Shown piece by piece: positions 43,451-52,984 of a stretch of 64,000 nt of DNA; the first letter of the stretch is position 1; each line of letters opens with the position of its first letter. The DNA is from Oscillospiraceae bacterium. Its GTDB lineage: Bacteria > Bacillota > Clostridia > Oscillospirales > Oscillospiraceae. Both the position numbers and the translations under genes were made by a program. The notes beneath the pieces were generated by a model, which did no database searches, was not told the origin of the DNA, and worked only from the letters and a program-made list of their open reading frames with translations. The stretch lies in NCBI GenBank assembly GCA_910575695.1, contig CAJTGJ010000016.1, positions 1 to 64,000 of the forward strand. The letters run 5' to 3'.

Positions 43451-45553
43451 ATGCGTATTCAGCACAATATTATGGCAATGAGTGCCTACCGCAACTACAC
43501 CAACAACGTCAGCGCGATGAAGAAGAACCTGGAGAAGCTCTCCAGCGGCTACAAGATCAACCGCGCGGGCGACGACGCCGCCGGTCTGGCGATTTCTGAG
43601 AAGATGCGCGCCCAGATCACCGGCCTGGAGACCGCCCAGAAGAACGCCAAGGACGGCATCAGCCTGGTGCAGACCGCCGAGGGCGCTCTGACCGAGGTCC
43701 ACGATATGCTCAACCGTATGGTGGAGCTGGCCACCCAGTCCGCCAACGGCACCTACGACAACACCACCGACCGCGCCCAGATGCAGAAGGAAGTTGACCA
43801 GCTGCTGGACGAGATCAACCGTATCGCCGACAGCTCCAACTTCAACGGCATCAAGCTGCTGGACGGCACCCTGGGCCTGGACACCGACACCTACACCATC
43901 GGCAATGTGGGCGCTGTGGACCCCGAGGCCGTGAGCGGCTTCAACACCGCCATCCTGCCCACCGCCGCCGGTACCGCCGTGGCCGGCACCAACACCATCC
44001 TCCATGCCGACGGTAAGGAAGCCGTGGCCGGTGAGTTCACCATCGACCTCCAGCAGGTAACTGTAACCAAGGATACCGCTGCCAGCAAACTCAAGCTCAG
44101 CATCGGCGGTGTGGACGTCGCCAGCCTGACGGGCACCGCTACGGGTGCTTTGGATGCCAAGAAGATTGCCGCTTTGATTGCTACCAAGTTCAAGGGGACT
44201 TCGGCTGGCAACTCTCTGTTGCTCACCTCCGCTGGTGCGTTTGCCAAGGGCGCGACCACCGACAAGGGCTTGCTCCTGAAGGCCAGCGACAACGGCGACG
44301 GCACCGTCACCTTTACGGTCAACGCCTACAATAAGGGTACCACCTATACGGCCATCACCGCCAGCAACGTCAAGGAAGCCATGGACTACGTGGGCTCCGC
44401 CGCCGCCAACAAGAAGCTGGACGTGACTGTGGCGGTCGCCGCCAACGGCAAGGGCACTGTCGCTAACGGCAATAACGTGGGTACCCTCAACATCACCAAC
44501 AACCAGAAGGCCGAGGCCGGCAAGCTGGGCAACACGGTGATCACCATCGATCCCACCAAGATCAAGGACGGCTCCGTCCTCAACATCGCCGGGGAGAAGT
44601 ACACCTTCGCCATCGGCAAGGACAGCGCCTATAAGAGTGGGACGAATGTCATCGACCTGACCGGCATCGTGAAGGACGCCAGCGATCTGAGCGGCACCTT
44701 GTCCACGCAGCAGAAGAATGATATCGCCGCAGCCATCACCCGGGCCACCGCCGGCAACAAGACCCTGAACGTGGGCTTCGGAGGCAATGACTGGACCAAG
44801 ATTACCCTCACCGAGAAGTCCGACGGCCAGGGCAACAGCGCCTCCACCGTCACCGACGCCATGAAGAAGGCCATGAGCACCAAGGATGGCTTCCAGAAGC
44901 TGGTCTCCCTGACCGGCCCGGCCCTGGCGGCGGGCCAGAGCGTCAAGGGTACGCCCAAGGACGACACCAGCCTGACCATCGGCGGCAAGCGCTTCACCTT
45001 CAACAAGGCGGGCGAGGGCTCGGATAAGAACGCCACCTATATCAAGACCAGCGACGGGATGGCGGGCCTGAGCGCCGCGCTGAAGGCCGCGGGCATCGCC
45101 CATGAGTTTGACGGCGCCGACAAGATCACCGTGCGCGGCGGCACCATCCTGGGCAAGGGCCTGACCCTCCAGATCGGCGACACCGCCGACAGCTTCAACC
45201 AGCTGAACGTGGGTGTGCAGGATATGCACGCCAGCTCCCTGGGCATTGACGGCCTGAAGATCAACACCGAGGAGAAGGCCCAGCTGGCTATCGATAAGAT
45301 CAAGACCGCCATCAACACCGTGTCCGACGTGCGCGGCACCCTGGGCGCTACCCAGAACCGTCTGGACCACACCATCAACAACCTGTCCGTCATGACCGAG
45401 AACATCCAGGACGCCGAGAGCACCATCCGCGACGTGGACGTGGCCGAGGAAATGATGGCCTACACCAAGAACAACATCCTGATCCAGTCCGCCCAGGCCA
45501 TGCTGGCCCAGGCCAACCAGGTTCCCCAGGGTGTGCTCCAGCTCCTGCAGTAA
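43451..45553 (+). CDS. Flagellin, long form with large variable centre
   Basis: The filament subunit, 700 residues against 270-500 in many relatives. The conserved D0/D1 N-terminus (MRIQHNIMAMSAYRNY, LSSGYKINRAGDDAAGLAIS, LVQTAEGALTEVHDMLNRM) spans 1-145. The conserved C-terminus (NTVSDVRGTLGATQNRLDH, NLSVMTENIQDAESTIRDVD, ending QVPQGVLQLLQ) spans about 600-700. In between are about 450 residues rich in Thr, Ala, Lys, Gly and Asp, forming surface-exposed D2/D3-type domains. Ser and Thr there are candidate modification sites. It is secreted by the flagellar export system without a signal peptide. The modification-like operon at 45729 follows. Confidence 0.97.
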   Translation: MRIQHNIMAMSAYRNYTNNVSAMKKNLEKLSSGYKINRAGDDAAGLAISEKMRAQITGLETAQKNAKDGISLVQTAEGALTEVHDMLNRMVELATQSANGTYDNTTDRAQMQKEVDQLLDEINRIADSSNFNGIKLLDGTLGLDTDTYTIGNVGAVDPEAVSGFNTAILPTAAGTAVAGTNTILHADGKEAVAGEFTIDLQQVTVTKDTAASKLKLSIGGVDVASLTGTATGALDAKKIAALIATKFKGTSAGNSLLLTSAGAFAKGATTDKGLLLKASDNGDGTVTFTVNAYNKGTTYTAITASNVKEAMDYVGSAAANKKLDVTVAVAANGKGTVANGNNVGTLNITNNQKAEAGKLGNTVITIDPTKIKDGSVLNIAGEKYTFAIGKDSAYKSGTNVIDLTGIVKDASDLSGTLSTQQKNDIAAAITRATAGNKTLNVGFGGNDWTKITLTEKSDGQGNSASTVTDAMKKAMSTKDGFQKLVSLTGPALAAGQSVKGTPKDDTSLTIGGKRFTFNKAGEGSDKNATYIKTSDGMAGLSAALKAAGIAHEFDGADKITVRGGTILGKGLTLQIGDTADSFNQLNVGVQDMHASSLGIDGLKINTEEKAQLAIDKIKTAINTVSDVRGTLGATQNRLDHTINNLSVMTENIQDAESTIRDVDVAEEMMAYTKNNILIQSAQAMLAQANQVPQGVLQLLQ

Positions 45554-45586: not shown

Positions 45587-45613
45587 CGGGGGCGGGCGTA
45601 AGCCCGCCCCCTT
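45587..45613 (+). terminator. Flagellin terminator
   Basis: GGGGGCGGGC pairs with GCCCGCCCCC across a GTAA loop and is followed by TTTGT, 34 bases after the flagellin stop. Confidence 0.85.
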
Positions 45614-45628
45614 TGTATAAGGTCCGCC

Positions 45629-45704
45629 TGTAGGGGCACACAGTGTGCGCCCGCAGCCCAACGCCCGGTTTATCACGGGCGGGCGTACACTGTGCGCCCC
45701 TACA
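45629..45704. repeat. Imperfect palindrome of MITE/REP type
   Basis: The 26-base arms TGTAGGGGCACACAGTGTGC(GCCCGC) at 45629-45654 and the near-complement ending GTGCGCCCCTACA at 45679-45704 enclose an inner CGCCCGG/CGGGCGG pair. GTAGGGGC-ended palindromes of this kind are common dispersed intergenic elements in bacteria. It fills the gap between the flagellin terminator and the next gene, 25 bases before that ATG. Confidence 0.7.
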
Positions 45705-45728: not shown

Positions 45729-47723
45729 ATGACAGCCATCGAAATCGCCCGCCGTCTGGCGGAGCTGGAAAACACTGCGGGGGCGCTGAGGGCCTACAGG
45801 CTGGTCCTCCAGGAGGGCGGCGGCGATCCCGCCGGAAAGCTGGAGGCGGCGGCCTATCTTCTGCAAAACGGCGGAGATTACCGGACGGCTTATACTGCAT
45901 TTGTTGAATTGTATAACAGCGGTTTCGCAAAAGAGGACTGCCTGGAGCTGCTCACACAGGTTTTTTATCAGCCAAATGTCAAGCTGCTCAAAACGAGGTA
46001 TGAAAAGAACTGCAGGCGGCTTGCCAAGTACCCTTACCTGTTCCGGAAGGATTTCCTCGCCTTTGAGGAACTGCCTGTTCGCTTTTACCCCTTTGACGAC
46101 AACGGGTATGTGCCCTTCTGCCGGGAAAAGGAGCACTTTGGAGATTATGTAAAACCCCGGACAGAAATCATCAGCCGGAATTTTTTTCATGATTTGGAAA
46201 ATCCCATCCTGGCCAAGGATGTTTTTTCCCAGTATGAACTGGAATATTTGAACGATAATGTGCGCAAAAGCGAGTGGGTGGCCCGGGAGAACCACATTTA
46301 CCTCCACTATTCCAACTGGGGCGAGTTCTGCTCCTGGCTCCAGGTGCTGAATCTCCGGCCCCTGACGGAGGAGAAAAAGGTGGTTTTCCTGATTGAGGAC
46401 GAGCTGGCGCTGTACCCCATCGACTTCAAGGAGCGGTTTGGCATCGACTACAGCCAGTACCCCTTCAAGCCTATTGGCATCCGGGAAATTAACCGGCTCA
46501 TCTGGCACACCCAGCTCTCCAGCCACAACGGCGGCGACTTTTTCAACGAGGTGTTTGACGCCCATCCCAACCTGATCTGCCTGCCCTCTTTGATACTGGA
46601 CGGCGTGGAGGCGGGCATCGCTGACCTCCGGGAGTCGATTGAAAACTGGGAGCCGTCTTTGGTGGAGCTGAGGACCGCCGTGGCGGAAGAACTGCTGAAC
46701 ATGACGGACCGCACGGACAAGGACTATCTGATCGGGCTGTTCATGGGCTCCGGCATAGGGACGACGGGGCTGGATCACAGATCCCGCATCGCGCCGGCCG
46801 TTTTCTTCCAGCCCCATTTCCATAATATCGTGTACGATATGAAGGTGAACAACAAGGACCAGGTGGAGCTGTACTCTCCCCAGTACGAGCACCTGTGCGC
46901 CTCCCAGATGGTGCAGGGGTTCAAATACATCAAGACCTTTACCCCGATGCGCCGGTTCACCACCAGCCACGGGGCCACGGTGAAATATATGTACCAGGCG
47001 GCGCAGGATCGGGAGGGGCATCCGGAAGAAGGGAAACTGGTAGTAGTTAACGATGCGCTGATGCAGCGGGTCATGAACCGCAGTTTCATGGTGGACTGGC
47101 AGGACCGGCTGTATATGGACAGCGTACTGGTGCGCTTTGAGGACGCCAAGCTCAACCCCAAGGCCACGTTTACGGCGCTGGCGGCGTTTCTGGACCTGCC
47201 CTACGCCGAGAGCATGACCTACTGTTCCCTGAATGGGGAGATTGACCCGGAGTCGCTGGAAGGCAATGTGCGGGGGTTTGACACGGAGGCGGTATACCGC
47301 GCCTATGACGAGTATGTCAACGACGCCGAGCGGTATTTTATTGAGTATTTTCTGCGGGACGCCTACGAGTATTATGGCTACGGCTTCAAATGGTACGACG
47401 GTGCGCCGGTGGATGAGGGTAAGATTCGGGATCTGCTGGGCAAATTCGAGCGCATGGACTATTATATCCGAAAATCCTGGGAAATGAATACCTTTGAAAA
47501 TGTGAAAATCACCAGGGACGGGGAAGTGGTTGATTTGGGGGATGTGGATATCGCGAAGGAGATATGCGATGGGCGCATGGAGGGAGTACGCGAGAACCGG
47601 GAGCACGTTGTAAGCTATCTTCTGCGAGGCCTGAACTTCATCAACAAAAAAGGCCAGCCCCTGCACATGATGCCCAAACTGGAACTGGACCCCGCGCTGC
47701 TGGAGCGGCCGCTGTACCACTGA
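45729..47723 (+). CDS. Sulfotransferase-fold protein (candidate phosphonate or sulfo group transferase)
   Basis: A 664-residue cytosolic protein not matching a named family that I know. Residues 1-90 are helical and repeat-like. A sulfotransferase pattern starts near 260: HTQLSSHNGGDFFNEVFDAH followed by PNLICLPSL aligns with the usual G-x-P-R-S-G-T-T-L-L-...-D-A-H-P block, but the PAPS-binding loop R-S-G-T-T is replaced by S-H-N-G-G. Near 467, LVRFEDAKLNPKATFTALAA then FLDLPY matches the typical C-terminal R-x-E-D-L-x-x-x-P sulfotransferase block. It is the first gene of the phosphonate operon. The altered loop suggests a different nucleotide donor from PAPS. Start follows GAAAGGAC. Confidence 0.62.
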   Translation: MTAIEIARRLAELENTAGALRAYRLVLQEGGGDPAGKLEAAAYLLQNGGDYRTAYTAFVELYNSGFAKEDCLELLTQVFYQPNVKLLKTRYEKNCRRLAKYPYLFRKDFLAFEELPVRFYPFDDNGYVPFCREKEHFGDYVKPRTEIISRNFFHDLENPILAKDVFSQYELEYLNDNVRKSEWVARENHIYLHYSNWGEFCSWLQVLNLRPLTEEKKVVFLIEDELALYPIDFKERFGIDYSQYPFKPIGIREINRLIWHTQLSSHNGGDFFNEVFDAHPNLICLPSLILDGVEAGIADLRESIENWEPSLVELRTAVAEELLNMTDRTDKDYLIGLFMGSGIGTTGLDHRSRIAPAVFFQPHFHNIVYDMKVNNKDQVELYSPQYEHLCASQMVQGFKYIKTFTPMRRFTTSHGATVKYMYQAAQDREGHPEEGKLVVVNDALMQRVMNRSFMVDWQDRLYMDSVLVRFEDAKLNPKATFTALAAFLDLPYAESMTYCSLNGEIDPESLEGNVRGFDTEAVYRAYDEYVNDAERYFIEYFLRDAYEYYGYGFKWYDGAPVDEGKIRDLLGKFERMDYYIRKSWEMNTFENVKITRDGEVVDLGDVDIAKEICDGRMEGVRENREHVVSYLLRGLNFINKKGQPLHMMPKLELDPALLERPLYH

Positions 47724-47733
47724 GGAGAGCGCC

Positions 47734-48249
47734 ATGGAGAGACAAAATCGGGTATACTGGCTCACCGGGCTGTCCGGGGCGGGCAAGACCACCATCGGCC
47801 GCCTGTGGCGGGACGAGCTGCGGAAAAACGGCCAAACCGTGGTGTTCCTGGACGGGGACGAGATGCGCTCCGTGTTCGGGGTGGGGCTGGGCTTCAACGG
47901 CGCGGACCGCCGGAGGCTGGCGGAGAGCTACGGGCGGCTGTGCGCCCTGCTGGCGGGGCAGGGGGTGACGGTGGTGTGCTGCACCATCTCCATGTTCCAC
48001 AGCGTGCGGGCCTGGAACCGGGCCAACATCCCGGGCTACTACGAGGTGTACATCGAGGCCAGCATGGACACCCTGCGCCGCCGGGACCAGAAGGGGCTGT
48101 ACAGCCAAAACGCGGACAACGTGGCCGGGGTGGGCCTCCAGGTGGAGCTGCCGGACGCCCCGGACCTGGTGCTGGACAACAACGGGGACAAGACGCCGGA
48201 GCAGCAGGTGGAGCGCCTGCGGGCAGCGGCGCTGGGCTTGGAGGGCTGA
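47734..48249 (+). CDS. Adenylylsulfate-kinase-like protein
   Basis: A 171-residue P-loop kinase of the CysC family. Features: Walker A GLSGAGKTT (about 10-18), FLDGDEMRSVFG (about 37-48), LGFNGADRRR (about 51-60) and the late DQKGLYSQN. The textbook enzyme phosphorylates the 3'-OH of adenylylsulfate. No ATP sulfurylase gene lies in the window, and the genes around it encode cytidylyltransferases, so the substrate may instead be a CMP-linked phosphonate. A precedent is Cj1415 of Campylobacter jejuni, a CysC relative that phosphorylates cytidine diphosphoramidate. The stop is 3 bases before the next start. Confidence 0.83.
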   Translation: MERQNRVYWLTGLSGAGKTTIGRLWRDELRKNGQTVVFLDGDEMRSVFGVGLGFNGADRRRLAESYGRLCALLAGQGVTVVCCTISMFHSVRAWNRANIPGYYEVYIEASMDTLRRRDQKGLYSQNADNVAGVGLQVELPDAPDLVLDNNGDKTPEQQVERLRAAALGLEG

Positions 48250-48252
48250 GAT

Positions 48253-49560
48253 ATGGCAGAGAAAAAGACAGTGTTCATGTCCATCGGGACGGACGTGATC
48301 CACGGCGGCCACATGGAGATCATCCACCAGGCAGCGGCGCTGGGGGAGCTGACGGTGGGGGTGCTCACCGACGAGGTGGTGGCATCCTACAAGCGCCACC
48401 CCCTGCTGTCCTGCGAGGAGCGGATGAAGATCGTGGCGGGGCTGAAGGGGGTGGCCCACGTGGTGCGGCAGGACGGGATCGGCTACGCCGCCCCCCTGCG
48501 GGCCCTGCGGCCGGACTACGTGGTCCACGGGGACGACTGGCGGGAGGGCTTCCAGAAGCCGGTGCGGGAGGAGTGCCTGCGGCTGCTGGCGGAGTACGGC
48601 GGGGAGCTGGTGGAGTTCCCCTACTCCCACAACGGGGAGTACGACCGCCTGGAGGCCGCGGCCCGTTCCCAGGCGTCCATCCCGGACCTGCGCCGGGGGC
48701 GGCTGACGTGGCTGATTGAGCACAAGGGCTTCATCACCTGCATGGAGGCCCACAACGGCCTGACGGGGCTCATCGCGGAGAAGGCGGCGGTGCTGGAAAA
48801 CGGCGAGATCCGGCAGTTCGACGGGACGTGGGTGTCCTCCCTGTGCGACTCCACCACCAAGGGGAAGCCGGACATTGAGCTGGTGGACTTCTCCTCCCGG
48901 ATGAACACCATCAACGAGATCATGGAGGTGACCACCAAGCCCATGATCCTGGACGGGGACACCGGCGGCCTGACGGAGCACTTCGTCTACACCGTGCGCA
49001 CCCTGGAGCGCCTGGGAGTGTCGGCGGTGATCATCGAGGACAAGGTGGGGCTGAAGCGGAACTCCCTGTTCGGCACGGAGGCGGAGCAGAACCAGGACAG
49101 CGTCGAGAACTTCTGCCGCAAGATCTCGGCGGGGAAAAAGGCGCTGAAAACCAGCGAGTTCCTGATCATCGCCCGGATCGAGAGCCTGATCCTGGAGCAG
49201 GGCATGGAGGACGCCCTCCAGCGTGCCGCCGCCTACGTGGAGGCCGGGGCCGGGGGCATCATGATCCACTCCCGGCGGAAGGAGCCGGACGAGATCTTTG
49301 AGTTCTGCCGCCGCTTCCGGGAGAAGGATCCGGACACGGTACTGGTGATCGTGCCCACCTCCTTCAACTCGGTGACCGAGGAGGAGTGGAAGGAGCGGGG
49401 GGTGAACGTGGTGATCTACGCCAACCACCTGATCCGCAGCGGCTACCCCGCCATGCAAAAGACGGCGGAGACCATCCTGCGCTGCCGCCGGGCCAAGGAG
49501 GCGGACGAGGCGTACTGTATGCCCATCAAGGAAATTCTGACGCTGATCCCGGAGGAGTAA
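48253..49560 (+). CDS. Cytidylyltransferase-phosphoenolpyruvate mutase fusion
   Basis: A 435-residue bifunctional protein. Residues 1-135 form an HxGH nucleotidyltransferase (SIGTDVIHGGHMEII, then the VVHGDDW block). Residues 150-435 form PEP mutase: FITCMEAHNGLTGLI, ILDGDTGG with metal-binding Asp, and IEDKVGLKRNS, which fits the diagnostic EDK-x5-NS motif separating true mutases from isocitrate lyase relatives. The mutase isomerises PEP to phosphonopyruvate, forming the C-P bond; the partner domain probably activates a phosphonate with CTP. Similar fusions exist in other gut bacteria. Operonic with its neighbours. Confidence 0.93.
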   Translation: MAEKKTVFMSIGTDVIHGGHMEIIHQAAALGELTVGVLTDEVVASYKRHPLLSCEERMKIVAGLKGVAHVVRQDGIGYAAPLRALRPDYVVHGDDWREGFQKPVREECLRLLAEYGGELVEFPYSHNGEYDRLEAAARSQASIPDLRRGRLTWLIEHKGFITCMEAHNGLTGLIAEKAAVLENGEIRQFDGTWVSSLCDSTTKGKPDIELVDFSSRMNTINEIMEVTTKPMILDGDTGGLTEHFVYTVRTLERLGVSAVIIEDKVGLKRNSLFGTEAEQNQDSVENFCRKISAGKKALKTSEFLIIARIESLILEQGMEDALQRAAAYVEAGAGGIMIHSRRKEPDEIFEFCRRFREKDPDTVLVIVPTSFNSVTEEEWKERGVNVVIYANHLIRSGYPAMQKTAETILRCRRAKEADEAYCMPIKEILTLIPEE

Positions 49561-49629
49561 GAAGGCGCCCCCGCCCTGTGGGCGGGGGTGCGGAAAATCC
49601 GGGCCAGCGCCCGAAAGGAGAACAAGATT

Positions 49630-51057
49630 ATGGATTTACAAGAGCGCGTCCGGCTGAAAAAGGCGGATCGAAACGAGCTGTATACCCTGGAGCCCCCCTT
49701 CCCCACCACCAACTTCCTGCTGGAGCTGTCCAACGCCTGCAACCACGCCTGCCTGTTCTGCGCCCACCAGAAGATGAAGCGGAAGGCGGGCAAAATGGCC
49801 CCGGAGATGGTGGACAGCGTCCTGCGGCAGGCCTACGAGCTGGGGGCCCGGGAGGTGGGCATGTACGCCACCGGGGAGCCCTTCCTGGTGCCCGAGCTGC
49901 CGGAGTACATCAAATTGGCCAAGGACATCGGCTACACCTACGTGTACCTCACCTCCAACGGCTCCCTGGCCACGCCGGAGCGGATCCGGGCGGTGGTGGA
50001 CGCGGGGGTGGACAGCGTGAAGTTCTCCGTGAATGCGCCGGAGCGGAAGCTGTATGAGTTCATCCACGGCAAAGACGACTTTGACAAGGTATATGATCAT
50101 CTGGTATACTTGAACCAGTACCGCGGGGAGAGCGGCCGGGACTTCAAGATCTACCTGACGGGCATCCTCACCCGGTACACGGAGCACACGAAGGACGACT
50201 ATTTCAAGGTGTTCGACGGCCTGGCCGACCAGATCGTATTTAAAAATGTCTACAACCAGGGCGGCTACATGCCGGAGATCGACTGGCAGCTCAAATGCAC
50301 CGACGACAAGGAGCAGTTCCGCCGCTGCAACCTGCCCTTCGATGCCCTGTGCGTCACCTGCGAGGGCTACCTGTCCGTGGAAAACGCGGACTTTGAGAAT
50401 ATGCTCATCGTGGCGGATCTGAACAAGGTGTCCCTGAGGGAGGGCTGGTACGGCGATAAAATGAAGGAAGTGCGCCGGATGTTCCTGGACGACTGCCTGG
50501 AGGGCACCCTGTGCCACGGCTGCGTCCACCACTGCCAGTCCCCGGCGGAGCCGCTGATGCCGGAGTACGCCACGGACAACCCGGACATTTTTGTGGACTG
50601 GCCTGTGCGGGAGCGCATCAAGGCGGCGGGCTTCCCCTATACCAAGCTGGTATACGTGCCCATGTCGGCGGACATCATCCATCCGGGGCACATCAACATT
50701 TTGAAAACGGCGGCGTCTCTGGGCCGGGTCATGGTTGGCCTGTTCAGCGACGAGGCCATCCGGACCTACAAGCCGGAGCCGTACATGAGCTACGGCCAGC
50801 GGAAAATTGTGGTAGAGAACTTGAAATACGTGGACGTGGTGGTGCGGCAGGAGACCAAGGACTATTCGGACAATTTGCGCCGTTTCCGCCCCGATATCAT
50901 GGTCCACGGCACAGACTGGCGGACCGGGCCCCTGGCGGAGGTCCGGCAGAAGGCCATCGACCTGCTGGCGGAATGGGGCGGCGAGGTGGTGGAGCCGGAG
51001 TACACCCAGGGGGTGTCGTCCAGCCAGTTCAAGGAGAAAGTGAAGGAGGCCAAATGA
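49630..51057 (+). CDS. Radical SAM-cytidylyltransferase fusion
   Basis: A 475-residue protein. The radical SAM core (about 30-230) has the CxxxCxxC motif as CNHACLFC near 40 and the GEPF block. A SPASM-like Cys region (CNLPFDALCVTCEGYLSV, then CLEGTLCHGCVHHC) suggests auxiliary Fe-S clusters. Residues about 345-470 form a second HxGH nucleotidyltransferase (PMSADIIHPGHINIL, IMVHGTDWRTGP), paralogous to that of the PEP mutase fusion. No B12-binding domain is seen. It may modify a CMP-bound phosphonate. Start at 49630 follows AAAGGAG. A G-C hairpin (49564-49590) precedes it. It overlaps the next gene in ATGA. I know no characterised example of this fusion. Confidence 0.85.
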   Translation: MDLQERVRLKKADRNELYTLEPPFPTTNFLLELSNACNHACLFCAHQKMKRKAGKMAPEMVDSVLRQAYELGAREVGMYATGEPFLVPELPEYIKLAKDIGYTYVYLTSNGSLATPERIRAVVDAGVDSVKFSVNAPERKLYEFIHGKDDFDKVYDHLVYLNQYRGESGRDFKIYLTGILTRYTEHTKDDYFKVFDGLADQIVFKNVYNQGGYMPEIDWQLKCTDDKEQFRRCNLPFDALCVTCEGYLSVENADFENMLIVADLNKVSLREGWYGDKMKEVRRMFLDDCLEGTLCHGCVHHCQSPAEPLMPEYATDNPDIFVDWPVRERIKAAGFPYTKLVYVPMSADIIHPGHINILKTAASLGRVMVGLFSDEAIRTYKPEPYMSYGQRKIVVENLKYVDVVVRQETKDYSDNLRRFRPDIMVHGTDWRTGPLAEVRQKAIDLLAEWGGEVVEPEYTQGVSSSQFKEKVKEAK

Positions 51058-52160
51058 CACCTGATTTCTTAGCGGAGTTTGAATTTTTTGCCGGCGTGCC
51101 GGACAGCCAGCTCAAGGCGCTGTGCTCCTGGCTGTACGACCGGTACGGCATTTCAGACCGGCACGTCATCGCCGCCAATGAGGGAAACGCGGCGGCGCTG
51201 GCGGCGGGATACCACCTTGCCACGGGGAAGACCCCGGTGGTGTACCTGCAAAACAGCGGCCTGGGGAATATTGTGAACCCGGCGGCGTCCCTGCTCCACG
51301 AAAAGGTGTACGGCATCCCCTGCCTGTTCATCGTGGGCTGGCGTGGGGAGCCGGGGGTGCATGACGAACCCCAGCACGTATTTCAGGGAGAGATCACCCT
51401 CAGCCTGCTGGAAAACCTGGAGATCCCTGCCTATGTCATCGACAAAACCACCACGGAGGAGCAAATCAAGGCCAGGCTGGACGAATACCGCGTCCGGTTC
51501 GCCCAGGGGAAGCAGGCGGCGTTCGTGGTGCGCAAGGGGGCGCTGGAGTACAGCGGCAAAGCCGTCTATGGCAGCCCCCACCCCATGTCCCGGGAGGAGG
51601 CCATCGGGCGCGTGTTGGCGGCGTCCGGGGATGATCCGGTGGTATCCACCACCGGAAAGGCCAGCCGGGAGGTGTACGAGCTGCGGGAGGCCCGGGGGCA
51701 GGGCCACGGACACGACTTCCTCACGGTAGGCTCCATGGGCCACAGCTCGTCCATCGCGCTGGGCATCGCTTTACAGAAGCCGCACCGCCGGGTGTGGTGC
51801 CTGGACGGGGACGGCGCGGCGCTGATGCACCTGGGGGCCATGGCGCTGATCGGGGCCAACCGGCCCGCCAACCTGGTCCATGTGGTGCTGAACAACGAGG
51901 CCCACGAATCGGTGGGCGGTATGCCCACGGTGGCGGGGCGGTTGGATCTGCCCGCCATCGCCCGGGCCTGCGGCTACCCCAGCGCCGTATCGGCGGCCAG
52001 CCCGGACGGGCTGGAACAGGCGCTGAACGAGGCAAAGGCCGGGAATCAGCTCATATTTATAGAAATAAAATGCGCCCTGGGCGCACGGGAGAACCTGGGC
52101 CGCCCCACCACCACGCCCCAGGAAAACAAAGCGGCGTTTATGGCCGCGCTGGAGGACTGA
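51054..52160 (+). CDS. Phosphonopyruvate decarboxylase
   Basis: A 368-residue thiamine-diphosphate enzyme converting phosphonopyruvate to phosphonoacetaldehyde and CO2, which pulls the unfavourable mutase step forward. The N-terminal part has FFAGVPDSQLKALCSWL and the catalytic Glu in AANEGNAAALAAGYHLATG. The C-terminal part has GSMGHSSSIALGIAL and the ThDP/Mg motif GDGAALMHLGAMALIG ending in VVLNNEAHES. The length fits AepY/Ppd. It overlaps the radical SAM gene by 4 bases; the PHP gene begins 2 bases later. No aminoethylphosphonate transaminase gene is present. Confidence 0.95.
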   Translation: MTPDFLAEFEFFAGVPDSQLKALCSWLYDRYGISDRHVIAANEGNAAALAAGYHLATGKTPVVYLQNSGLGNIVNPAASLLHEKVYGIPCLFIVGWRGEPGVHDEPQHVFQGEITLSLLENLEIPAYVIDKTTTEEQIKARLDEYRVRFAQGKQAAFVVRKGALEYSGKAVYGSPHPMSREEAIGRVLAASGDDPVVSTTGKASREVYELREARGQGHGHDFLTVGSMGHSSSIALGIALQKPHRRVWCLDGDGAALMHLGAMALIGANRPANLVHVVLNNEAHESVGGMPTVAGRLDLPAIARACGYPSAVSAASPDGLEQALNEAKAGNQLIFIEIKCALGARENLGRPTTTPQENKAAFMAALED

Positions 52161-52162
52161 GC

Positions 52163-52984
52163 ATGAGCGCACGGTGCGATCTTCACACCCACACCACAGC
52201 GTCCGACGGGCAGTATACCCCCGGGGAGCTGGTCAAAAAAGCAAAGGGACATGGCCTGTCCATCCTGGCCGTCACCGACCACGACACCATTGCCGGGGGA
52301 TCCGAGGCCATGGCGGCGGGAAAGGCCCAGGGCCTGCGGGTGATCCGGGGGGTGGAGCTGAGCGCGAAGGAGCGCAAGAATTTCCACATCCTGGGCTACA
52401 ATTTCCAGGACGGGGACACCGAGCTGGCCCGTCTGTGCGAAAAATTCCGGGCGGGGCGGGATGAGCGGAAGTATAAGATCGTGGATTTTCTTCGCGAGAA
52501 GGGTGTGGACATCGACCTGGCCGAGGTAGAGGAGCTGGCGGGCGGCGATGTGATCGCCCGGCCCCACTTTGCCCAGGTGCTGGTGCGGCACGGCTATACC
52601 GCCACCAACCGGGAGGCATTTGACCGCTATCTGGATACGGAGGAATTCCGGCGCAGGGTGAAGCGGTTCAAGGCGGACGCCCGCACCTGCGTGGAGGCCA
52701 TCAAATCCGCCGGAGGCAGCGTGTCCCTGGCCCACCCCTACCAGATGGGCCTGCCCGACGGTGAGCTGGACGCGTTGGTGGGACAGCTCAAGGACTGGGG
52801 CCTTGATGCCATCGAGTGCTATTACCCCAGGTACACCCCGGAACAGCAGGAACTTTACCTCCATCTCACGGAAAAATACCGGCTCCACCGCACCGGCGGC
52901 AGCGATTTCCACGGCGAAATGGTGAAGCCGGACATCGAGCTGGCGGCGCTGGATCTGGATCTGGATCTGGACTGGCTGCTGTAG
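52163..52984 (+). CDS. PHP-domain phosphoesterase, possible 3',5'-bisphosphonucleotide phosphatase
   Basis: A 273-residue PHP-superfamily metallo-enzyme: CDLHTHTTASDGQYTP (metal His residues), AVTDHDTIAGG, RGVELSAKERKNFHILGYNF, LAHPYQMG and the terminal GSDFHGEM supply the trinuclear metal site. The architecture matches the YciV/TrpH group, which includes RNase AM and the Chromobacterium CV1693 3',5'-nucleotide bisphosphate phosphatase. In this operon a 3'-phosphatase would recycle the by-product of a PAPS-like transfer. That role is inference from context. Confidence 0.85.
   Translation: MSARCDLHTHTTASDGQYTPGELVKKAKGHGLSILAVTDHDTIAGGSEAMAAGKAQGLRVIRGVELSAKERKNFHILGYNFQDGDTELARLCEKFRAGRDERKYKIVDFLREKGVDIDLAEVEELAGGDVIARPHFAQVLVRHGYTATNREAFDRYLDTEEFRRRVKRFKADARTCVEAIKSAGGSVSLAHPYQMGLPDGELDALVGQLKDWGLDAIECYYPRYTPEQQELYLHLTEKYRLHRTGGSDFHGEMVKPDIELAALDLDLDLDWLL

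Follow-up and report, generated by a model that had tools for sequence, protein, structure and literature searches.

What is a kinase of the sulfate-activating type doing in an operon that makes a phosphonate? The question is raised by positions 45729-52984 of a contig from an Oscillospiraceae bacterium (CAJTGJ010000016.1; its first 64,000 nucleotides (nt) were analysed and are called the window), where genes for a CysC-like kinase and a probable sulfotransferase-type protein stand together with genes for phosphoenolpyruvate (PEP) mutase and phosphonopyruvate decarboxylase (Ppd). We consider it fairly probable that this locus is a flagellin-linked decoration cassette, in which the logic of sulfation by 3'-phosphoadenosine-5'-phosphosulfate (PAPS) is applied to a phosphonate cargo. 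The locus comprises the following features.

43451-45553, + strand: flagellin, 700 amino acids (aa); PF00669 153.6 bits, PF00700 100.5 bits.
45588-45611, + strand: terminator-like hairpin with 10 G-C pairs, a 4-base loop and a T-rich tail; a consensus match only, of which the region holds 14, with 9.3 expected.
45729-47723, + strand: transferase, probably of the sulfotransferase type by profile evidence via relatives, 664 aa.
47734-48249, + strand: predicted CysC-like nucleotide 3'-kinase, 171 aa; PRK05541, PF01583 and motif counts.
48253-49560, + strand: cytidylyltransferase-like domain fused to PEP mutase, 435 aa; TIGR02320, motif EDKVGLKRNS.
49630-51057, + strand: radical SAM/SPASM-cytidylyltransferase-like fusion, 475 aa from ATG; PF04055 73.5, PF01467 47.2.
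51054-52160, + strand: Ppd, 368 aa; TIGR03297.
52163-52984, + strand: PHP-family phosphatase, a candidate 3'-phosphatase of cytidine 3',5'-bisphosphate (pCp), 273 aa; PF02811.

The six genes from the transferase to the phosphatase are intact and all lie on the + strand. Their re-derived coordinates agree with the original prediction, as do the families of the five that curated models recognise. The intergenic spacing is 10, 3, 69, -4, and 2 nt, three junctions thus being an overlap or a gap of at most 3 nt (-4, 2, and 3 nt), as had been described. An alternative GTG start of the radical SAM gene is possible at 49588. Glycosyltransferase models of Pfam and NCBIfam matched none of the six proteins. 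The six-gene set therefore stood, while its extent did not, since the flagellin gene upstream had been overlooked; the original prediction contained neither the flagellin link nor the swapping of cargo genes described below.

Between the end of the flagellin gene and the transferase lie 175 nt, which include the hairpin. The own genome carries three transferase copies, each with a flagellin. Transferase relatives were present in 13 of 119 searched genomes related to the window genome, the own genome included; in G038 they are limited to a distant branch, ST2. The distribution is patchy, as 7 of 295 genomes sampled evenly across the order have the transferase, the own genome being one of these 7. 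Public genome contigs, when scanned, yielded 111 transferase relatives, of which the best 80 (L050-L129) were analysed; 18 transferases of an earlier set share source records with these 80 loci. They come mostly from Oscillospiraceae and related Clostridia, with a few cultured strains, among them Agathobaculum desmolans ATCC 43058 and Flavonifractor plautii ATCC 29863. Where 450 nt or more of upstream sequence is available, 62 of 63 loci have flagellin ahead of the transferase (L121 does not); of the 17 loci with less, 8 have it. The flagellin match is a median of 126 nt away from the transferase. Among the 73 loci that extend 400 nt or more downstream, 72 have a CysC-like kinase there, L127 being the one without; four of the seven shorter loci have it too. 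Chance linkage of flagellin, transferase, and kinase is rejected. In L066, a flagellin lysine methylase gene (167.8 bits, cut-off 85) is located between flagellin and transferase, and tblastn finds the same gene at this place in L067 and L069. Judging by this neighbourhood, the window flagellin is likely the acceptor of the modification or the carrier of an acceptor glycan. The gap between flagellin and transferase also holds an imperfect inverted repeat at 45629-45704, TGTAGGGGC...GCCCCTACA, each 9-base arm end of which is unique in the window.

The genes accompanying this core differ from locus to locus. Among the 80 loci, as classified by tblastn with queries drawn from these same loci (the gene caller used on relatives misses or misplaces some genes), there are 13 PEP mutase sets, 15 loci with a CysC-methyltransferase fusion, 15 with an IspD-like cytidylyltransferase (usually accompanied by an epimerase-family protein), six with a cytidylyltransferase-dehydrogenase fusion, five of the phosphoramidate type, three with ATP sulfurylase, one of the glycosyltransferase type, 13 others, and nine unclassified. 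The gene combination of the window, on whose recurrence in relatives the original prediction in part depended, is thus found again in them. In A. desmolans ATCC 43058 (L123), for example, genes for a radical SAM protein, PEP mutase, Ppd, flagellin, transferase, kinase, and PHP protein form a single row. One PEP mutase set, L100, contains a 2-aminoethylphosphonate (AEP) aminotransferase (TIGR03301 430.1, cut-off 360.8) and a MobA-like nucleotidyltransferase, and its cargo is therefore probably AEP. The phosphoramidate-type loci (L066, L095, L099, L107, and L110) were assigned by family resemblance. L066 encodes a 770-aa PEP-utilising kinase (PRK05849 943, cut-off 501), a MobA-like nucleotidyltransferase, a methyltransferase, and a C26 protein, an amidotransferase with gamma-glutamyl-CDP-amidate hydrolase NF045546 as the best model (110.9, and 90.2 in L107; cut-off 250; CDP is cytidine diphosphate). 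Among the others, L077 has a ribulose-phosphate epimerase, an IspD-like cytidylyltransferase, and an alcohol dehydrogenase, genes that would suit CDP-ribitol.

ATP sulfurylase is found in L055, L073, and L085. Sulfurylase cassettes L028:753-3020 and L055:5591-7849 also encode a Na/H exchanger-like protein and a 319-aa pyruvate-kinase-barrel protein. In L073:12564-13609 (genome G027), the sulfurylase match is split across two reading frames, which may be a sequencing error or a broken gene. The CysC-methyltransferase fusion loci are L050, L054, L058, L065, L070, L096, L102, L103, L114, L116, L119, L120, L125, L126, and L129; the fusion is also present at L024:8924-10078. Its methyltransferase and that of the phosphoramidate class are distantly alike (E 0.09), and one guess is that the donor here is a methylated phosphate on a 3'-phosphonucleotide.

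The window kinase proved to be of the CysC type and, by motif, not an ordinary kinase of adenosine-5'-phosphosulfate (APS), in agreement with the original prediction. It scores 98.3 with APS_kinase PF01583 (cut-off 21.1) and 170 with PRK05541 (cut-off 127), and remains under the apsK equivalog TIGR00455 (99.3, cut-off 138.7). When five cassette kinases were compared with NCBIfam, PRK05541 was the best model, above the cut-off, for four of them, as for the window kinase; the fifth, the sulfurylase-linked kinase of L055, was best matched by apsK at 135.0, narrowly under 138.7. The P-loop and the DGD catalytic core are invariant in all nine aligned kinases, the window kinase included. At the positions of the APS-site motifs the window kinase has RLAESY and ISM, so both N[IL]RR and [IV][ST]P are missing. 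Among cassette kinases, NIKR and ISP are present in all three sulfurylase-linked ones and in 0 of 74 others. For comparison, 28 CysC matches were drawn from other Clostridia on the assumption that they are ordinary APS kinases; all 28 have [IV][ST]P and 27 have N[IL]RR, at two aligned places, and nine of the 28 lie in open frames of at least 610 aa, as expected of CysN-CysC fusions. SP seems to be the firmer mark of an APS kinase, as the archaeal-type PDB chain 2yvu retains SP and lacks NIRR.

To compare the histories of kinase and transferase, quick trees were built for 74 of 77 kinases and their transferases, leaving out L042, which lacks this kind of transferase, and L064 and L116, each with a stop in the transferase match. 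On the kinase tree, 17 changes suffice to explain the cargo labels; the transferase tree requires 33, and shuffled labels about 50. Hence, cargo genes tend to travel together with the kinase more than with the transferase. In the former tree, two phosphonate relatives group with the window kinase in a clade (100), which joins five phosphoramidate-type kinases in a group of eight (100). Cj1415, from the Campylobacter jejuni phosphoramidate pathway, is a CysC relative. The sulfurylase-linked kinases are a clade by themselves (99), and the remaining phosphonate kinases are placed elsewhere, so that 'phosphonate' is not one kinase clade. The transferases of the window kinase's group are scattered over three separate positions of their tree, and L051, L052, and L089 have sister transferases in three different cassettes. 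The long branches of L089, L051, L118, and L121 make some of these placements unsure.

The phosphonate genes of the window are well recognised. PEP mutase matches TIGR02320 with 399.7 bits (cut-off 319.55), and its EDKVGLKRNS agrees with the motif EDKxxxxxNS; Ppd matches TIGR03297 with 472.9 bits (cut-off 312.5). Together, these two enzymes yield phosphonoacetaldehyde. The radical SAM protein scores 73.5 with PF04055 (cut-off 29.5), and its SPASM domain 18.4, just under 21.5. The two cytidylyltransferase domains, treated alike in the original prediction, turned out to differ, as only one of them has the SSS-type motif: the domain fused to the radical SAM protein has HPGH and GVSSS, whereas the alignment of the one fused to PEP mutase (48253-48700) has HGGH and YSHNGEYDR in place of GVSSS. 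The latter motif presumably has a functional role in cytidylyltransferases, and since it is retained in the radical SAM-linked domain and not in the PEP-mutase-linked one, we infer that the former is the active cytidylyltransferase. SSS is likewise missing from the other aligned PEP-mutase-fused domains (the row of L052 is empty). The PHP protein matches PF02811 with 51.4 bits (cut-off 26.4), its best NCBIfam models being RNase RNM (168.4) and nucleoside-bisphosphate phosphatase (167.5), and its nearest PDB chains are 9etk, 3e0f, 7ug9, and 2yb1.

The transferase is probably, though not provably, of the sulfotransferase type. Three of its motifs could be delineated, the first two of which may bind the 5'- and 3'-phosphate, respectively.

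Transferase, within residues 264-282: candidate 5'-phosphate loop SSHNGGDFF...HP.
Transferase residues 402-413: candidate 3'-phosphate motif KTFTPMRRFTTS, with R408 invariant.
Transferase residues 468-488: RFED...FL motif.

Across 54 aligned transferases, R408, R469, E471, and D472 are invariant, and N267, G268, H279, and P280 are conserved in at least 90%. In profile searches of PDB, the sole match of the first profile was the CurM sulfotransferase (E 0.04), and a larger alignment matched the TEG12 sulfotransferase (E 0.94 and 1.1) and an unrelated albumin (E 1.2). The commonest Pfam family among the 54 members is PF13469 Sulfotransfer_3, matching nine of them at E<1 (best 0.0044, below the cut-off); the next families have two matches each. 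The link is stronger for a shorter branch of three ST2/ST3 sequences, which is homologous to the main family (hhalign 100%, E 2.1e-88). Compared with 12 pooled Sulfotransfer_3 proteins, this branch yields 93.3% (E 2.7e-7, 158 columns), with at most 0.7% for ten control families; subsets yield 80.5, 21.8, and 1.9%. The 12 pooled proteins were drawn from 17 extracted ones, of which L213-L215 and L224 were compared separately and L210 was left out (wrong frame). ST3 matches PF13469 with E 4.4e-4, below the cut-off; phmmer gave no match for ST2 and three unrelated matches only for ST3.

Combined, these data suggest the following scheme. PEP mutase and Ppd would make phosphonoacetaldehyde, and the radical SAM-cytidylyltransferase would tailor it and/or couple a phosphonate to cytidine monophosphate (CMP). 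The CysC-like kinase would then phosphorylate the 3'-OH of the CMP-phosphonate, producing a mimic of PAPS; the sulfotransferase-type protein would bind this donor by its 3'-phosphate and transfer the phosphonyl group to flagellin or its glycan; and the PHP enzyme would strip the 3'-phosphate from the released 3',5'-bisphosphonucleotide (pCp), recycling it. Each reaction after phosphonoacetaldehyde, as well as the acceptor and the exact cargo, is what we infer. The sequence from CMP-phosphonate through 3'-phosphorylation and transfer to pCp recycling had been part of the original prediction; it is a prediction of chemistry supported by genomic tests, namely the lack of sulfurylase, the missing APS-site motifs, the phosphoramidate-type nearest kinases, and the recurrence in relatives.

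In the relatives, the core of flagellin, transferase, and kinase would be kept and the cargo genes exchanged, the sulfurylase version performing ordinary sulfation and the phosphoramidate version resembling C. jejuni. The identified cargos would share an attack on a distal phosphorus or sulfur with the nucleotide as the leaving group, which would explain how one transferase family serves them all. In the general form, to which we give even chances, a conserved sulfotransferase-type enzyme would move sulfuryl, phosphoramidyl, phosphonyl, and polyol-phosphoryl groups, with a cargo-matched CysC kinase loading the 3'-phosphorylated nucleotide; the cassettes would be exchanged to vary the flagellar surface, and PAPS would be one of a wider class of donors.

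Could the kinase simply make PAPS beside phosphonate synthesis, with the transferase sulfating flagellin or the phosphonate product? The kinase and the transferase do resemble a sulfation pair, cassettes with sulfurylase exist in relatives, and a published phosphonate cluster carries cysDNCQ-like genes (PMC12723261). However, the supply of APS appears to be missing, as originally predicted: nothing in the own genome matches ATP sulfurylase PF01747, an absence that is not absolute in an assembly of 296 contigs with 95.6% completeness and 6.1% contamination. In the genus, PF01747 is over the cut-off in four of 42 genomes (strongly in G014, G021, and G027, marginally in G018), with two more weak sub-cut-off matches, and CysD is over the cut-off in none of the 42, the own genome having two weak matches. 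In G021 and G027 the sulfurylase adjoins a cassette kinase and transferase, the latter preceded by flagellin. With no match to sulfurylase and no CysD over the cut-off, no APS-site motifs in the window kinase, and the sulfurylase-linked kinases in a clade apart, ordinary sulfation is disfavoured, and we regard it as very improbable. It is also unlikely, in our estimate, that the CMP-phosphonate is transferred directly, without a 3'-phosphate, and that the CysC-like protein phosphorylates the phosphonate, a glycan, or a polyol. This would fit the published CMP-AEP scheme, the main text of which mentions no CysC-type kinase (PMC6697681), as well as the 391-genome class samples of Clostridia. In these samples, PEP mutase is over the cut-off in 32 genomes and CysC has a match in 30, yet 28 of the 32 PEP-mutase genomes lack a CysC match, the four with both being the own genome, G191, G258, and G314; the pairing is therefore not a habit of PEP-mutase genomes. 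Against direct transfer, the kinase accompanies chemically unlike cargos that share nucleotide activation, its P-loop and DGD are retained, and it clusters with kinases of phosphoramidate-type cassettes. A control based on PEP-mutase neighbourhoods (30 loci, at most 1.5 kb on each side; CysC in one, L163) was dropped because its span is too short to include even the kinase of the own C9 cassette (L153).

The acceptor may also be something other than flagellin, such as a surface glycan or another protein, the adjacency of flagellin being regulatory. Glycosyltransferases are present in some cassettes, and L042:6597-13667 has a phosphonate cassette (kinase 72% identical) with a distant homologous transferase away from flagellin, neighboured by genes of an epimerase, a thiamine pyrophosphate (TPP)-enzyme, an FkbM methyltransferase, and an aldo-keto reductase. 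Nevertheless, the nearly constant flagellin upstream of the transferase, its presence with each of the three own-genome copies, and the flagellin lysine methylase inserted in some cassettes make another acceptor highly improbable.

Several observations weigh against the reading of the locus as a flagellin-linked, PAPS-type phosphonate cassette. The window transferase has no match in Pfam or NCBIfam; of the 'sulfotransferase fold' claimed in the original prediction, recognition of the protein itself thus failed, while the assignment remains probable through the profiles of relatives. Direct hhalign comparison of the main family with clostridial Sulfotransfer_3 is weak (0.4-19.6%, ten control families at most 1.1%), the better matches covering the RFED...FL stretch; the strong link goes through a branch of three sequences, and the match falls to 16.2-39.3% when this branch is pooled with part of the main family. 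The PHP protein is under the equivalog cut-offs of NF041577 (167.5 of 400) and NF047791 (168.4 of 375), and its gene is present in 41 of the 80 loci, or in 32 of the 50 with at least 7 kb downstream. AEP aminotransferase matches are weak and partial in G028 (69% complete) and G038, both of which have the window cassette type; in G031 and the own genome a close match lies elsewhere in the genome. The cargo is therefore uncertain and need not be AEP, as another phosphonate, tailored by the radical SAM protein, may take its place. The main gap in the scheme is the CysC-methyltransferase fusion cassettes, as seven activating-enzyme queries gave no match in the available stretch of the 15 loci. Finally, L194 (G014:C50):2933-7927 is a module of sulfurylase, CysC, antiporter, pyruvate kinase (PK) barrel, and PHP genes with no recognisable transferase or flagellin within 20 kb, its neighbouring genes having been read by eye; it looks as if a cargo module were moving on its own.

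Parts of the proposed logic are already published, namely the CMP activation of phosphonates, the 3'-phosphorylated CDP donor of C. jejuni, flagellin with 2-AEP, and a phosphonate cluster with PAPS genes. In C. jejuni, Cj1415-Cj1418 are reported to make CDP-phosphoramidate 3'-phosphate (PMC11800397). The O-methyl phosphoramidate capsule pathway of this species (transfer genes Cj1421/Cj1422) resembles our scheme in having a nucleotide-activated phosphorus group with a 3'-phosphate, and five relatives of the window locus carry genes resembling those of the pathway. Unlike it, the window has a PEP-mutase phosphonate as the cargo, flagellin as the apparent acceptor, a PHP phosphatase, and a long transferase of the probable sulfotransferase type; Pfam and NCBIfam revealed no glutamine kinase, CTP:phosphoglutamine cytidylyltransferase, or glutamine amidotransferase (GATase) among the six genes (CTP is cytidine triphosphate). 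PAPS sulfation (ATP sulfurylase, CysC, sulfotransferase, and phosphatase of adenosine 3',5'-bisphosphate, pAp) has the same logic order, a related kinase, and a probably related transferase, and its sulfurylase version is seen on the same core (L055, L073, and L085); the window differs in lacking ATP sulfurylase and the APS-site motifs of the kinase and in its CMP-type activation.

CMP activation of AEP is a published bacterial scheme (PntC type, PMC6697681), and in the surface pathways described there, as in the window, nucleotidyltransferase domains are joined to PEP mutase. Neither 'kinase' nor 'sulfotransferase' appears in the main text of that paper, whereas both genes are linked in the window. 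Type A flagellin of Clostridioides difficile is reported to carry 2-AEP (PMC8861647), again a phosphonate on a clostridial flagellin, with a different gene set, which includes a GlcNAc transferase and threonine-phosphate genes; according to that report, the source of 2-AEP is not known, pepM was not detected in the species, and 2-AEP might, as its authors speculate, be supplied by other bacteria of the gut. The Kitasatospora fiedleri cluster has a CysC-like kinase among phosphonate genes, as the window does, and, unlike the window, both subunits of sulfate adenylyltransferase, its authors expecting true PAPS (PMC12723261). No description of the combined gene set or of the swappable core was found in titles and abstracts of the open-licence literature, in line with the original prediction, which knew of none.

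If the scheme is true, the 3'-phosphate of PAPS would be a handle that can be reused to move many phosphorus and sulfur groups, the phosphoramidate donor of C. jejuni would gain a family, and there would be a route for placing phosphonates on flagellin. The general form, if proved, would represent a new class. For biochemical comparison, the sulfurylase cassettes are a ready-made reference. In the gut, flagellin is a major signal to the immune system, and modular chemistry of its surface would bear on recognition by the host. Some Clostridia appear to attach unusual groups to their flagella by one cassette with swappable cargo, built on the logic of sulfation.

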